DNA of 64,000 nucleotides from Chloroflexota bacterium (GCA_016191845.1 JACPVF010000017.1:124001-188000), one strand, 5' to 3'; shown: positions 25,073 to 32,191, counted from the stretch's first letter. Translations and numbers: made by a program. Notes: a model not told the origin generated them from the sequence alone.

Positions 25073-25105
25073 CCTCGGAAGTTCGAAGACTTCCGAGGTC
25101 TTTTT
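25073..25105. terminator. Terminator between the TetR gene and the beta-helix gene
   Basis: A 10-bp stem (CCTCGGAAGT / ACTTCCGAGG) with T on the plus strand. It abuts the stop of the converging gene and may serve both. Confidence 0.85.
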
Positions 25106-27950
25106 ATTGCGGCACGTAGTATTCCACTATCAACACAGGGCGGAAGGCCGCCGTGGCAGCATCGCCGCTGTAGAACTTGATGGTGTCGGCCCCCAGGTCA
25201 TCGTTGTCGTCCAGTTGGAAGCGCAGGCGGAATTGCGTCTCGCCCGTCTTGTTGATGAATTCCAGGGCGGACTCGCTCATCGTCGCCGAGAACCAATTGT
25301 CGGCGGGGGCGTTGGCGAAGAGTCCCGCCGAATCGAGGCTGGCTTCGGCCTGATAGTCGGGCACCTCGAGCACGCCGCGCCCGAAGGTCCCGCCTTTGAT
25401 GTCCACCACCAGGTTCTGATGCGTGAGGAACGGGTCGGTGCCTGTCACGCTCAGGCGTTTGATCTTGAGCGTGGCGCGGACGATCACCGCATTGTCTGGC
25501 AGGGATGCGGTGTTGAAATCGAGGATGACGCGGAACTGGCGGTCCTCGGCGTTGTCGCCCACGTAAAAAGTGGCAGAGGTGGCGTCGATCCCGCCGCCGA
25601 TATTGCTGTTCTCACTCGACTCGATCACGTAGCCGTCGTTGGCCTTGTTGGAGACAAAGGTGGTCGAGGCAAGGTCGATGGGTGCAGACTTGATGACCGC
25701 ATAGGCCTCACCCGAGGAAAAATCACCGTTACCCGTTCCCGCGCCTCCAAGCGGATTGCCCGCCGCGTCGACGATGCTGTCATCGTCCTGGACCTTGAGG
25801 CTGATGCCGCCGTCCTGGCTGCCTGTGTCCACACTGACGGTGTACTCGGTTCCCGCGCCGCTGACCTCGGTCACGGATGCACCCGTCAGGCTGCCGTTGG
25901 TCGAGAGGGCGAAGTCACTTGCGTCCACGCCGCTGACGGTCTCCGAGAACTTGACCGTGAATTTCACGCTGGCGGCATTGGTGGGATTCTGGTCGACGCG
26001 CAGGATGGACGTCACAGTGGGGGCGCGGTCAAAGGTCGACTCGATGGCCCCGAGATCGGGCGCGTTGCCCTGGAAGTCATCATTGATGCCAGGCAGGGAC
26101 ACACCACGGTCCACGTTGGGGCTGGTAGTCTGCAGGCTGAAGTCGCCGCCCGTCGGGTTGATAAAGCCCGGTGCGGACTCGTGCCCGTTGCATTCCAGCG
26201 TGGTGGCGGCACACAACTCTGCGATGGTGTTGTAGGACAGCTTCTCCCATTTGAAGTGCGGTCCGCTCGTGCGGGTGGTGTACCAGTTGTCGTAGTCCCA
26301 ACTGTGACCCGTCAGCCCCGTGACGGGACTCTCGAAAGCGAAGCCATTGCCCTGGAAGATGTTATTGCGCATGGTCACATTGGACACGGGGCGGATGACG
26401 CTCATCGCGTTGAGGTCCTTCGCATTGGTCCAGCTGGTGTTGTGATAGAGGAAGACCGGGCCGTCGGAGTACAAGTCCCATTTGAAACTGGTGCTCGTGA
26501 AGTTGCTGATCTGATTGCGCAGCACCCACACGGGGCCGTGCGTGATGGGCGCAAACGATACGCCGACCAGGGTCGAGTCGATCAAATTATTGCGGAAGCG
26601 ATGATTGACGGCGGCGCCTTCGGGTTCGAGCGCGTCGTCCCCGATGTGGTGAATGTGGTTGTCGTACACGTCCACATCCAGCGCGACGGCGTAATTCTCG
26701 AGCGCCGCGGAAGCGGACGTGCCCGAATACACGCCGTTGAAGATATGATGCAATTCATTGTCGCGGACGATGGCCCCGATATGTCCGCGCAGGACGATGG
26801 CCGTACCTTCCATCGTCGAGCCTTTGACTGCCGCCCACGGCCACTCGTTGACGGGCGGATCGAAGATCTCGTTCGACTCGATGCGCGTGTCGTTGCCCTG
26901 AGCCTCGGTCCCGTTCCAGTTGACGTACACGCCCAACTGCATGTTGTGGATCTTGTTCTTGCGCACCACCAGATGCGAGACATTCTTGGCGCACACACCG
27001 CAGCCGTCGATCACGCCATAGTAGCGCATCTCGAAGCCCTCGATCCAGATCCAGTCGCGGCCTGAGATGTCGAAGGCATGGTTGTAGCGTGGCACCTGCC
27101 AGGTGTGCTTGGATGGGTCGTCCAGGCTGCGGACGTAGAGGCGGCTGCTGTTGAGGCGCATGTACCAGCCCTCGTTCATCGGCACCTTGTTGTGACCGCG
27201 CGAGTCCGTCAGACCCTTCATGTTGTCATAGTTGTAGAAACGCTGTCCGTCGCGGGCCAGGTACTTGACGTAAGGCGAAGTGGTGTACCAGATCTTGTTT
27301 TTCTGATAGACCTTCCAGATGTCGCCGCTGAGGGTGATCGACCCGTCGAGGATGGCGCCGTTGCCCTCGGCCTTGACCTGGATCCACTTGCCCTCTGCGC
27401 CCGAGGCGGGGAAGCTGACCGACTCATGGTACACGCCATCGGCCACCAGCACCTGCGTCCCGGGCGTGGCGCGGTTGACGGCTTCCTGGATGGTCTTGAA
27501 CGGCTTGGACTTGGAGCCGTCTCCGCCCGCTGCGGCATCGTCGTCCACGTAGAGGACTCCCGCGGGGGTGAACTGTAACTCCTCGGGCTGGGTCGTGACC
27601 GAACCGCTGATCTCGGTCGTCCCTGCCACCACCTTGACGTTGTACTGTGTGGCGGGTGAGAGCCCGAACAGGCTGCCTGCCAGGCGCACGTTGTTGCTGA
27701 GCACTACGGGTTGGCCCGTGTGCCAGTCCGTTTCGCCGTTCTTCTGGTACATCAATGTGGCCGACTTGGGCAGGGCCGTCCCGCTGACGATCACGCCGAC
27801 GGTCTCGATGTTGGCGATCAGTTCGATCTTGGCAAATGCCGTCGCGCCCGCCGCCTGGGCGGACGCCCCGGACAGGAATCCAACCAACAGTGCCGTGAGC
27901 AGCAACACGGTCACAAGATAAGTGTAGACGTTCAAGGATTTGGAACGCAT
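25104..27950 (-). CDS. Large secreted parallel beta-helix protein (pectate-lyase-like fold)
   Basis: 948 residues from ATG 27950, chosen because AAGGAC precedes it and a signal peptide then starts the protein (about 1-38, ending SGASAQAAG). Order: an Ig/FnIII-like module (about 40-120), then LYVDDDAAAGGDGSKSKPFK and IQEAVNRATPG, the opening of DUF1565/right-handed beta-helix proteins, with helix coils to about 590 (repeated VRKNKIHNM, VRDNELHHIF, VYDNHIHHIG). Next comes a Ca-binding/cadherin-like segment (SETVSGVDASDFAL, about 620-745) and a C-terminal DNRLRE-like domain (about 755-948). It is exported; it may bind or cleave polysaccharide. No lyase Asp triad can be assigned safely. Confidence 0.85.
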   Translation of the reverse strand: MRSKSLNVYTYLVTVLLLTALLVGFLSGASAQAAGATAFAKIELIANIETVGVIVSGTALPKSATLMYQKNGETDWHTGQPVVLSNNVRLAGSLFGLSPATQYNVKVVAGTTEISGSVTTQPEELQFTPAGVLYVDDDAAAGGDGSKSKPFKTIQEAVNRATPGTQVLVADGVYHESVSFPASGAEGKWIQVKAEGNGAILDGSITLSGDIWKVYQKNKIWYTTSPYVKYLARDGQRFYNYDNMKGLTDSRGHNKVPMNEGWYMRLNSSRLYVRSLDDPSKHTWQVPRYNHAFDISGRDWIWIEGFEMRYYGVIDGCGVCAKNVSHLVVRKNKIHNMQLGVYVNWNGTEAQGNDTRIESNEIFDPPVNEWPWAAVKGSTMEGTAIVLRGHIGAIVRDNELHHIFNGVYSGTSASAALENYAVALDVDVYDNHIHHIGDDALEPEGAAVNHRFRNNLIDSTLVGVSFAPITHGPVWVLRNQISNFTSTSFKWDLYSDGPVFLYHNTSWTNAKDLNAMSVIRPVSNVTMRNNIFQGNGFAFESPVTGLTGHSWDYDNWYTTRTSGPHFKWEKLSYNTIAELCAATTLECNGHESAPGFINPTGGDFSLQTTSPNVDRGVSLPGINDDFQGNAPDLGAIESTFDRAPTVTSILRVDQNPTNAASVKFTVKFSETVSGVDASDFALSTNGSLTGASVTEVSGAGTEYTVSVDTGSQDGGISLKVQDDDSIVDAAGNPLGGAGTGNGDFSSGEAYAVIKSAPIDLASTTFVSNKANDGYVIESSENSNIGGGIDATSATFYVGDNAEDRQFRVILDFNTASLPDNAVIVRATLKIKRLSVTGTDPFLTHQNLVVDIKGGTFGRGVLEVPDYQAEASLDSAGLFANAPADNWFSATMSESALEFINKTGETQFRLRFQLDDNDDLGADTIKFYSGDAATAAFRPVLIVEYYVPQ

Positions 27951-28054
27951 AAGTGTCCTTCTCTGAGTTCCCCGCGGCCTTCTTCGGGGACGGTCTGGCT
28001 TGCAATAAAGACGGAGAATTTGCCCCACTGGTTCGATCACGACTCGATTATAAA

Positions 28055-28083
28055 ACAAAAGGTCACGCCTTACGCGTGACCTT
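28055..28083 (-). terminator. Terminator after speE
   Basis: A 10-bp stem (AAGGTCACGC / GCGTGACCTT) is followed on the minus strand by TTTTGTTTTATAAT. The TATAAT that follows may be the -10 of the beta-helix gene. Confidence 0.75.
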
Positions 28084-29482: not shown

Positions 29483-30601
29483 TTAACGCCGCGCCAGCCG
29501 ACGGATCATCAGCCCGAGAAGCCTCGCACGGTGGACGACCTGCCCATACCAGCCCGTGGACCCGGGCCTGATCCCGTAATATAGCCTGAGCCACCACTCC
29601 GAGGGGGAGCGGAACGTCTGTGCGACAAAATTTCTCCACCCAACCTGTCGACTACGCTCGAACTTCTCCTGCGGCCAGCCCTGCGGATATTGGTTGATGC
29701 CTGTCGGCGGCCGACTCTGTTCAACAGGAATCACGCCGTGCAAAACTTCAGGCAGCGGGGTGAGGCTGTAGAAGACATCCAGCCATTGCAGCAACTTCGC
29801 GTGCTGTGACCAGTCGATGCTTTCTGCGCGACCTTCGATCAGGCTGAGGATGTCCGCGATCCACTTGAGTTGCAGGGGCTTATCGGTCCGTGCCTCGAAG
29901 AGATGGCGGGTGAAATGCCGCGAGAGATAGTCCAGGTTATCCATCGGGGCAGGGATGAAGACTGTGCCACCCTCGACCTGGATCGCTTGCGGCGGAGAGG
30001 TGAAGCCTGCAAATTCGTCATCACGCTGGCGCGGGTCGTAATGATGCAATTCCACATGGACGCGCAATCCATCGTGTGGAGGCGAGTCAACCGTCAGTTC
30101 TTTGGGAGCAGGCCCATTGTCGAGGGGCAGGGGCGGGGTAGAAAATCCTGCCGTGTGGAGCAGATCCAATGCGGGGCGAATCTCGTCGCGCTGGAGTAGC
30201 AAATCCAGGTCGCTGATGGGCCGCAGGGCGGGATCGGGATAAAGACTGTAGGCCAGGCCGAGGCCTTTGAGCACGAGCGGATGAATGTCCGCCGTTTTGA
30301 GCAGATCGACGATCTCAAGCAACACCTGTGCGTGGATTTGATTGTTGCGCCGATGACGCAAATACAGTCCCTTGAGCGTGCGCGCCACATCGGCGGGAAT
30401 CTGCGTGCCCGACCTTTGGATATGATGCCAAAGCAGCGGCGCCATGCCATGGGTTTCAGCTTGGACGATCAGTTCCTGCCAATCGTGGAAATCTGCAATC
30501 TGGCGCACAAGTTCAGCGTAGAGCGCATCATGACCCGAGGCGCGGGCGCACAGTGCCAGCAGACGGTAGCTGCTCAGTTTGTGAGCGTTTGCTGAATCCA
30601 T
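29483..30601 (-). CDS. Nucleotidyltransferase family protein (NTP_transf_5-like)
   Basis: 372 residues from ATG 30601, which overlaps the kinase gene by 28 bases; longer frames upstream run inside that gene. The nucleotidyltransferase core has PLVLKGLGLAYSLYPD (about 108-123) and then PISDLDLLL with the metal-binding Asp pair D131 and D133. A late helical region includes SRHFTRHLFEARTDKPLQLKWIADI cut at 20-residue scale. The family (PF14907-like) is of uncertain substrate; members occur with HprK-type kinases and PqqD proteins. It is last in the four-gene operon, and so may add a nucleotide to, or remove one from, the product of the kinase. Confidence 0.82.
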   Translation of the reverse strand: MDSANAHKLSSYRLLALCARASGHDALYAELVRQIADFHDWQELIVQAETHGMAPLLWHHIQRSGTQIPADVARTLKGLYLRHRRNNQIHAQVLLEIVDLLKTADIHPLVLKGLGLAYSLYPDPALRPISDLDLLLQRDEIRPALDLLHTAGFSTPPLPLDNGPAPKELTVDSPPHDGLRVHVELHHYDPRQRDDEFAGFTSPPQAIQVEGGTVFIPAPMDNLDYLSRHFTRHLFEARTDKPLQLKWIADILSLIEGRAESIDWSQHAKLLQWLDVFYSLTPLPEVLHGVIPVEQSRPPTGINQYPQGWPQEKFERSRQVGWRNFVAQTFRSPSEWWLRLYYGIRPGSTGWYGQVVHRARLLGLMIRRLARR

Positions 30602-31404
30602 GCAGTTGCGCTTTCGAGGTCGGAGTAGATGAGTTGCCAGGCGCGGACCTGCTTCGCGAGGCGCGAGGCGGCAGCCAGGCCGCCATCGGGAAAGTTGCGT
30701 GCGTTGACCAGCCCTTTCATTAATCGAAAAAGTGCATCGGCAGGTTTGAGCGGTTCGGTGTGCAACTCTGCATTTGGTGTGTAATGTGGGAAGATCAGGG
30801 TGTGCGGCGTTGCGCGTGGGTACACGTCCGCACCGAACAGGATTGGATCGATCCAGGTTGTGTCGTCGGCGAATTGCAAAAAACCGTTGACGGGTGGAAT
30901 CCCCAGCCACTTTTGCCACACAAAGGCCGATCCGCGTTTGAGGACGATCGAACGTGGCAGGCCGCTGATTTGCTCTCCCTCGAGGCAGATGACTTCATCG
31001 GTCAGGTAGCCGAAGCCGTTGGCGGCCAGCCAGGCCGTCAGCGTGGATTTGCCGCTGCCACTTTCGCCGCACAGGATCAAGCCATGCTCCCCCTGGGTCA
31101 ACGCCGCAGCGTGGATAACGGGCCCAAGGCGGGCGGCTCCGTTCAGGCGCGGAATGGAGTCTTGCATCAGATGAAACAAGACCTGCTCACGGATCAGGTT
31201 GGAAAATAAATCGCCACCATTCAGCGAGACGTTGAAGCGTGACTCGCCAAAGGCGGTGATTGTGTAATAAGCCGCAATCGAATTTGTTTTGCCGAGACAG
31301 TGTGTGAAGTGCATCTCGAGCGGAGCCAGGAGCTCGGCTGTCCCGTCGAAGTGGACGGAGTTACCCCCGAAGTGAATCGTGAACCCGTCAGCGGGCATGC
31401 TCAT
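30574..31404 (-). CDS. HPr-kinase-like serine kinase
   Basis: 276 residues with a P-loop CGESGSGKST (113-121) and GYLTDEVICLEG (132-143), which matches the HPr kinase/phosphorylase C-terminal fold (Hpr_kinase_C). It lacks the N-terminal domain of true HprK, and no HPr gene is in the window. Family members of this size act in modification clusters with PqqD proteins; a related kinase phosphorylates lasso peptides. Its ATG overlaps the PqqD stop (ATGA), and it overlaps the downstream nucleotidyltransferase. The substrate is inferred to be the Tat-signal protein of the operon or another small peptide. Confidence 0.85.
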   Translation of the reverse strand: MSMPADGFTIHFGGNSVHFDGTAELLAPLEMHFTHCLGKTNSIAAYYTITAFGESRFNVSLNGGDLFSNLIREQVLFHLMQDSIPRLNGAARLGPVIHAAALTQGEHGLILCGESGSGKSTLTAWLAANGFGYLTDEVICLEGEQISGLPRSIVLKRGSAFVWQKWLGIPPVNGFLQFADDTTWIDPILFGADVYPRATPHTLIFPHYTPNAELHTEPLKPADALFRLMKGLVNARNFPDGGLAAASRLAKQVRAWQLIYSDLESATAWIQQTLTN

Positions 31405-31670
31405 CCCGCCTTCAGCGCACCGCGCTCCACGAGGAGTTGAACGGCCTCGGGTACATCCCTGCGGATATCATCCTGCGATTCGGGATAAGCTTCACACAAA
31501 AGGGCGACGATATCCTCCACGCTGCGCACGCCGTCACACAACTGCCAGATCAGCGCGGCAGTCGGGTTGCTGTAGATGACGAGGCTGCGAGCGGGATGGA
31601 GCAAAATAGTTTCCCCGTCGAGGGTTTCCATGTGGAATCCTTCGACGGGGGAGGGAACAAGATCTTGCAT
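31401..31670 (-). CDS. PqqD-family protein (RiPP recognition element-like)
   Basis: 89 residues with the PqqD layout: three strands (FHMETLDGETILLHPARSLVIY) and a winged three-helix part (NPTAALIWQLCDGVRSVEDI, then VPEAVQLLVERGALKAG). PqqD domains bind leader peptides and bring them to modifying enzymes. The stop overlaps the start of the kinase gene, and it starts 11 bases after the Tat-signal gene. Here it would deliver a substrate to the kinase; which substrate is not known. Confidence 0.87.
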   Translation of the reverse strand: MQDLVPSPVEGFHMETLDGETILLHPARSLVIYSNPTAALIWQLCDGVRSVEDIVALLCEAYPESQDDIRRDVPEAVQLLVERGALKAG

Positions 31671-31681
31671 GTAGCTTTAGA

Positions 31682-32191
31682 TTACTTGGGAAATTCAGGG
31701 GTCTTGAAGACTTGGTCGTCAGTGCCCGTGCCATCGCCGGGATTCTCGAAACTCCAGGTAACAGTGATGGTGGAACCGAACCACAAGTTCGAATAAGTGA
31801 TGGGCAGAGTACCCAGCCCTGTATTGTCGGTGGGGATGGTCCCTGTGCTTTCGGCAGGGATATCAATGGCGGTTGGAGGTAACGCACCCTGAGGTTCATC
31901 GAGCACGATGGAATAGCGCATCAGGATGCCAGGGGTGGGCGGTGTAATCTGTACCGTGCTGTTGATGGTGATGGGCGGCTGTTCCACGTTGTCATCGATC
32001 TGCGCGTCCGCGCCTGCCACCAGGGTGTGGACAGTCTGTGAGGTTTGTGCGTGCGCGGGGAGGACACCGAAGTCCAGGCCGGGCTTGGTCCACTTGCCAG
32101 GCAGATTGGCCAGGGCACCCGCCCCGACGGCGGCTGCCAGGACCTTGATGGTGTCACGGCGGGACAATGTCTTTGATTTCTGGTCAGTCAT
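31682..32191 (-). CDS. Tat-signal small secreted protein, first gene of the PqqD-kinase operon
   Basis: 169 residues. The N-terminus has a twin-arginine motif SRRDTIKVLAAA (residues 10-21) and hydrophobic stretch to about 30. It is followed by KWTKPGLDFGVLPAHAQTS (33-51), which contains an AHA-type cleavage site. The mature part is about 120 residues, beta-rich, acidic, with no Cys (IDDNVEQPPITINSTVQ, SNLWFGSTITVTWSFENPG), ending in TPEFPK. No enzyme motif is visible. As the leading gene of a tight operon with PqqD, kinase and nucleotidyltransferase genes it is the natural candidate substrate. GAGGAGATTC precedes the start. Confidence 0.8.
   Translation of the reverse strand: MTDQKSKTLSRRDTIKVLAAAVGAGALANLPGKWTKPGLDFGVLPAHAQTSQTVHTLVAGADAQIDDNVEQPPITINSTVQITPPTPGILMRYSIVLDEPQGALPPTAIDIPAESTGTIPTDNTGLGTLPITYSNLWFGSTITVTWSFENPGDGTGTDDQVFKTPEFPK

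Follow-up and report, generated by a model that had tools for sequence, protein, structure and literature searches.

A Chloroflexota gene cassette in which a twin-arginine signal probably doubles as a RiPP-type leader

We analysed a 64,000-nucleotide stretch of DNA from a Chloroflexota bacterium (GCA_016191845.1, JACPVF010000017.1:124001-188000; hereafter the window), focusing on four coupled genes on its minus strand (positions 29483-32191) that encode, in order, a protein with a twin-arginine translocation (Tat) signal, a PqqD-family protein, an HprK-like kinase and an NTP_transf_5 nucleotidyltransferase. Sequence comparisons suggest that these genes probably form a self-contained cassette, in which the Tat signal would double as a leader of the type seen in ribosomally synthesized and post-translationally modified peptides (RiPPs), the kinase would modify Ser51 of the Tat protein, the nucleotidyltransferase would act on the resulting phosphate, and the protein would be exported by the Tat pathway.

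The Tat leader and its partner proteins

The first gene (31682..32191, on the minus strand like every window feature below that belongs to the cassette) encodes a 169-residue protein, the predicted substrate, with a leader (residues 1-48) and an immunoglobulin (Ig)-like β-sandwich mature domain (residues about 52-169). The protein scores 18.3 bits against the TIGR01409 Tat-signal model (cut-off 16.7) and falls under the cut-off of the Pfam TAT_signal model; TatC is encoded in the same genome (E 1.2e-53). The twin-arginine pair R11-R12 of SRRDTIK (32156..32161) is followed by a hydrophobic h-region (residues 17-30) and by an extended c-region that contains W34-T-K-P37-G-L39 (32075..32092), the predicted recognition sequence, WxxPx[LVIA], of a RiPP recognition element (RRE), here PqqD. 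The AxA rule places the predicted signal peptidase I site at A46-H47-A48 (AHA|Q; 32048..32056), and Ser51 (32039..32041), at position +3 after this site, is the predicted phospho-acceptor.

In an alignment of 19 leaders, the RR pair, K16, P31, W34, P37, P45, H47, A48 and S51 are invariant, and two further leaders carry F in place of H47. Leaders with the tryptophan ("W-type"), found in Chloroflexota-class loci and in Acidobacteriota, contain WxxPx with L, V, I or A as the next residue (M in one leader) in 26 of 26 cases, have HA or FA at positions -2/-1 of the predicted site, and show Ser at +3 past this PA[HF]A-type site, again in 26 of 26. One more match to the regular expression, in locus L040, lies outside a Tat gene and was discounted as chance.

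In the Tat protein, a conserved leader is combined with exchangeable cargo. As a rule, a signal peptide diverges faster than the protein it exports; within the family of the source genome, mean identity is 70% for the leader, 42% for the mature part, 60% for PqqD and 54% for the two enzymes. Among distant loci, the Tat proteins are alike only over residues 1 to about 55, and the same leader precedes an F5/8 type C domain in L044 and NHL repeats in L052. In the second of two tandem Tat genes of L050 (697-951), the leader, with its predicted cleavage site and Ser+3, is followed by no more than about nine residues. The window's own mature domain is modelled by AlphaFold2 (AF2) with a predicted local distance difference test (pLDDT) score of about 90 and weak structural matches to Ig-like folds, and the leader is modelled as disordered. 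In a same-genus Tat protein (L029:10900-11775), a single leader appears to precede two tandem copies of the Ig-like mature domain. The C termini of window-type Tat proteins are not conserved, and the window protein ends in Lys; we therefore set aside a C-terminal acceptor of the lasso-peptide kind for the window protein.

The closest points of reference for the partner proteins are the linear polyphosphorylated peptides (LPPs) of Bacillota, whose clusters encode the RRE LppB, the HprK-like kinase LppK, the NTP transferase LppN, the SipW-like peptidase LppS and an exporter (Popov et al. 2026, PMC13381572). The window PqqD (31401..31670; 89 residues; PF05402 E 2.5e-17) is a discrete RRE predicted to act as the leader-binding adaptor, and its profile, compared with solved structures, matches the lasso RRE TbiB1 and LppB itself (9x8z). 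The leader-peptide sequence recognised by lasso-type RREs is [Y/W]xxPx[L/V/I/F/A] (PMC13381572). The LppB contact residues N33, I56, Y60, V67 and D70 map to N35, L58, Y62, I69 and D72 of the window protein, each kept in 23-26 of 26 sequences, and W42 is among the conserved pocket residues.

Both enzymes retain the residues that mark their families. The kinase (30574..31404; 276 residues; TIGR04352, HprK-related kinase A, E 4.7e-25), the predicted Ser kinase of the Tat substrate, aligns with the solved HPr kinases 3tqf and 1ko7, and its HprK-type His98, P-loop Lys119 and Asp136 are invariant in 25 sequences. The nucleotidyltransferase (29483..30601; PF14907 E 3e-41, 142 bits against a cut-off of 31.2), the predicted second modifier of the phosphorylated Ser, has the invariant pattern KG...R-P..DxD...E, with its acidic D, D, E set kept. 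Its AF2 model (pLDDT 91.6) finds ANT(2'')-Ia, LnuA, MenT1 and TM1012 as nearest folds.

Linkage in Chloroflexota and recurrence in other phyla

A search with the kinase as bait detected it in 18 of 152 genomes from the source genome's family and 11 of 199 from its class. For 25 kinase loci of the class we retrieved 3-20 kb of sequence and looked for partners by tblastn; at nearly every locus, PqqD, the nucleotidyltransferase and the Tat protein lay next to the kinase. Within the family the gene order is almost always Tat-PqqD-HprK-NTP5. Other arrangements are Tat-PqqD-HprK with NTP5 divergent (L045), PqqD-Tat-HprK (L047), NTP5-PqqD-HprK-Tat (L048) and Tat-Tat-NTP5-PqqD-HprK (L050). That clustering is kept despite this rearranged order argues for a functional link between the cassette genes.

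A search of the 152 family genomes with a profile of the leader gave 19 full-length matches (E <= 1e-21) in 18 genomes. The scores are bimodal: the next match, at 3e-7, covers the generic Tat core only. Kinase and Tat motif are thus each present in 18 of 152 genomes, 17 of them common to both. The mismatches look like contig effects: one genome (G285) has a 4.9-kb contig with PqqD and two tandem Tat genes, and in another (G242) the Tat gene is cut by a contig end.

Other phyla have the kinase as well: its profile matched 63 of 200 genomes in Pseudomonadota, 12 of 198 in Actinomycetota and 13 of 199 in Acidobacteriota. Upstream of the Pseudomonadota kinase there is typically a gene encoding RRRxLLKGLAAGVPAIVTLQSGAALAASS...CWxSF, and we found no NCBIfam or Pfam model that matches this Tat partner. 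A profile of its leader matched 36 of these 200 genomes, and every one of the 36 belongs to the 63 kinase-positive genomes; for the 21 of the 36 that had not contributed seed sequences, 21/21 were kinase-positive (p about 9e-15), and the pair lay within 2.5 kb in 16/21. In L128, L131, L161 and other Pseudomonadota loci the Tat partner ends in a conserved (K/T)SCWxSF, possibly a second modification or anchoring site.

Actinomycetota leaders read approximately RRDxLKRxAxVGGAxVWAAPxVxSLxxPAFA. In Acidobacteriota, two loci (L181 and L182) encode REWTRPVVEMVELPVHAQGS about 4 kb from the trio of PqqD, kinase and nucleotidyltransferase genes. In a third (L189:7091-7588), located between the kinase and NTP5 genes, PqqD is fused to a Tat-like leader, SRREALKK...LPIVASLAAPQSALA, with a Cys-rich tail, NLSCACTTVADCSGPGVSCPTAGCSGEGVCI; judged from its sequence, this fusion looks like an RRE, leader and core joined in one chain, which would yield a small secreted peptide.

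Compact plasmid-borne versions, with the first gene annotated as "hypothetical protein", occur in Sphingomonas parapaucimobilis and Vibrio alfacsensis, and a Leisingera aquaemixtae plasmid carries a related form of the cassette. On the last of these (L194:4164-4376), a 70-residue Tat-like precursor whose tail is very basic (KSGGKPKKKKRKKKRRGRKRRRNRT) precedes a PqqD-HprK-like protein and a nucleotidyltransferase, and polysaccharide export genes adjoin.

An earlier, sequence-only reading of the window had called this a small, poorly described system and had suggested searching other genomes for the trio together with the Tat motif. In the genomes we searched, motif and cassette co-occur; we saw neither clusters that consistently lack a Tat protein nor a motif found as often away from clusters as near them. 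The system is not small: kinase-Tat pairs recur in Pseudomonadota, Actinomycetota and Acidobacteriota.

The architecture described in that reading was confirmed. The four genes lie on the minus strand at the coordinates given above, with an 11-base gap between the Tat gene and PqqD, an ATGA overlap between PqqD and kinase, and a 28-base overlap between kinase and nucleotidyltransferase, for which a GTG start at 30919 in the list of open reading frames (ORFs) marks a longer mechanical frame; we used the extent 29483-30601. Profile scans likewise bore out that the operon holds no lasso macrolactam cyclase, B2 protease, radical S-adenosylmethionine (SAM) enzyme or ATP-binding cassette (ABC) exporter, and neither the lasso cyclase nor the B2 leader peptidase was found among the neighbouring ORFs scanned. 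Promoter, terminator and inverted-repeat scans gave nothing clear.

The flanking genes, speE/speD downstream and a divergent major facilitator superfamily (MFS) transporter upstream, are unrelated to the cassette. Farther away, positions 25104-28058 encode a large secreted right-handed β-helix protein with a bacterial Ig-like domain, a homologue of which lies near the cassette in L029, L033, L034 and L043. The β-helix gene and speDE co-occur with the cassette in relatives and are absent in distant loci; we therefore attribute their co-occurrence to shared ancestry of the locus and set aside a functional tie.

Proposed pathway and competing explanations

In the pathway that we propose, PqqD, as a discrete RRE, would bind the co-encoded Tat protein through W34-x-x-P37-x-L39 of its signal's c-region, as suggested by the motif, by pocket conservation, by the L189 fusion and by co-occurrence. 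Docked through PqqD, the kinase would add one or more phosphates to Ser51 in the cytoplasm. We infer this step because LPPs are phosphorylated at Ser-3: LppK places multiple phosphates on core Ser-3 and on no other residue, and the variants S3A, S3T and S3Y stay unphosphorylated (PMC13381572). In the least certain step, the nucleotidyltransferase may then attach a nucleotidyl, sugar or sugar-phosphate group that extends or caps the phosphate. Nucleotidylation, the sequence-only proposal, is only one option here; a related lasso nucleotidyltransferase from paeninodin/pseudomycoidin clusters adds hexose to phosphate (PMC8498205). The protein would exit by Tat, and cleavage at AHA|QTS by signal peptidase I would leave the modified Ser close to the new N terminus of an Ig-like protein that is either secreted or held at the surface. 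The earlier idea that PqqD presents the Tat leader to kinase and nucleotidyltransferase before export gains strong comparative support from co-occurrence, the fusion, WxxPx[LVIA] and Ser+3; the modification itself we infer.

Several observations weigh against this pathway. LppB F74 is not conserved in the PqqD proteins, which have T, A, I or V instead. Ser+3 is missing from the four Actinomycetota leaders that we scored, and the W from those of Pseudomonadota. No Tat motif was recognised near the kinase in L049, L051 and L053, three distant loci of the class. The leader profile was seeded mostly from cassette genes, and co-occurrence within the family is informative mainly via the absence of orphan motifs. 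The acceptor position rests on a cleavage site predicted by the AxA rule only. Lastly, deletion of lppN had no visible effect in the LPP study (PMC13381572), which makes the proposed role of the nucleotidyltransferase tentative.

PqqD could instead serve mainly as an export chaperone of the Tat leader, in the manner of redox enzyme maturation proteins (REMPs), with kinase and nucleotidyltransferase modifying PqqD or the leader, as a means of regulation or release, and leaving no stable mark on the secreted product. Proofreading chaperones of Tat substrates are established and give this account a general precedent, the PqqD motif lies inside the signal peptide, which is removed, and a PqqD-Tat leader fusion is known from L189. 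However, chaperoning requires neither a kinase nor a nucleotidyltransferase, and the mature domain is a simple β sandwich with no recognised cofactor site. Moreover, the invariant Ser+3 belongs to the predicted mature part and corresponds to the residue that the homologous kinase modifies. We consider this explanation rather unlikely.

Alternatively, kinase and nucleotidyltransferase might take part in surface-polysaccharide synthesis, with the Tat protein as a polysaccharide-binding or anchoring partner and the modified Ser as the point of glycan linkage. We rate this as quite unlikely, since both the window and family cassettes and the Vibrio alfacsensis plasmid cassette lie outside any recognisable polysaccharide locus. 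In its favour, the Pseudomonadota cassette lies near XrtA/PEP-CTERM glycosyltransferases and an amidotransferase, LPP and paeninodin clusters occur in capsule loci, and the related lasso enzyme adds hexoses to phosphate; in addition, in one Chloroflexota Tat protein the mature domain is an F5/8C module of galactose-binding-like type, and the nucleotidyltransferase fold gives weaker matches to FKRP, a ribitol-phosphate transferase. An ordinary neighbourhood, in which an unrelated secreted protein sits beside a peptide-modification trio whose real substrate is encoded elsewhere, would fit L049, L051 and L053, which hold all or part of the trio without a recognised Tat gene, and is made highly improbable by cross-phylum recurrence, order shuffling, the fusion and the RRE motif in the leader.

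If the proposed Tat-leader pathway is correct, it would join Tat protein export to RiPP biosynthesis, extend polyphosphorylated-peptide chemistry beyond Bacillota to other phyla, and supply a substrate and a testable acceptor residue for an enzyme set named only "HPr-rel-A system". It also points to folded proteins as possible modified "cores". The pattern RR ... WxxPx[LVIA] ... PAHA|xxS offers a sequence rule for finding substrates, and the cassette a way into the unsolved function of NTP_transf_5 enzymes. More tentatively, Tat signals may serve as a general RiPP-style leader over at least four phyla, with PqqD/HprK/NTP-transferase cassettes relying on an RRE site within the signal peptide to direct an N-terminal phosphate-linked group, conceivably a joining point for a surface glycan, onto whole secreted proteins or short peptides.

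Comparison with known systems

The cassette shares one or more components with several described systems. The SynChlorMet cassette also pairs an HprK-like protein (the ScmC kinase) with a PqqD-like one (ScmD), to which the window proteins give weak profile matches. It includes radical SAM maturases, whereas the window operon has none. Paeninodin and pseudomycoidin lasso clusters combine an HprK-like kinase, a discrete RRE with a WxxP leader and a nucleotidyltransferase. Their kinases modify a C-terminal Ser, however, and the macrolactam cyclase and B2 protease of lasso clusters are missing from the window operon.

The HPr-rel-A system (NCBIfam TIGR04352 / TIGR04353) unites PqqD-like, HprK-like and NTP_transf_5 genes in one cassette, and in the present analysis we found a Tat-type protein directly upstream there too. 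One Pseudomonadota locus (L161) reaches both model cut-offs, with 368.8 bits for TIGR04352 and 53.5 bits for TIGR04353. In contrast, the window kinase stays under the TIGR04352 cut-off in a profile search (88.2 vs 200 bits), the window PqqD has no TIGR04353 match, and the W of the window leader is missing from Pseudomonadota leaders. The enzyme half of the system has already been named by NCBIfam, in Pseudomonadota; our literature search found no paper on the Tat version, on HPr-rel-A, on PqqD with Tat, or on HPr kinase with exosortase.

The LPP pathway offers the fullest parallel. As in LPP clusters, a discrete RRE, an HprK-like kinase and an NTP transferase are encoded together in the window; the precursor has a conserved N-terminal leader and a highly variable C terminus; and the leader motif [Y/W]xxPx[L/V/I/F/A] is found in 26/26 W-type Tat leaders (one with M at the last position). 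The LPP acceptor is Ser at core position 3, a place that the invariant Ser would take here if cleavage falls at the predicted AHA|Q site; the P-to-Ser spacing is 15 in LPPs and 14 here. LPPs differ in being described from Bacillota only and in having a SipW-like peptidase and an MsbA-like exporter, neither of which is present in the window operon or adjoining ORFs. The LPP leader reads YxxPxVLxHQxIxFETxxS, whereas the window leader is a Tat signal ending in AxA, with W for Y; and LPP precursors span 35-200 residues, whereas in the cassette a folded domain of some 120 to 450 residues can form the core. The window cassette would work like the LPP pathway but falls outside it by the lack of such a peptidase and exporter and by its leader consensus. 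Overall, sequence comparison and analogy with LPPs lead us to regard it as probably a Tat-exported relative of that pathway, in which the "core" would be a whole secreted protein.

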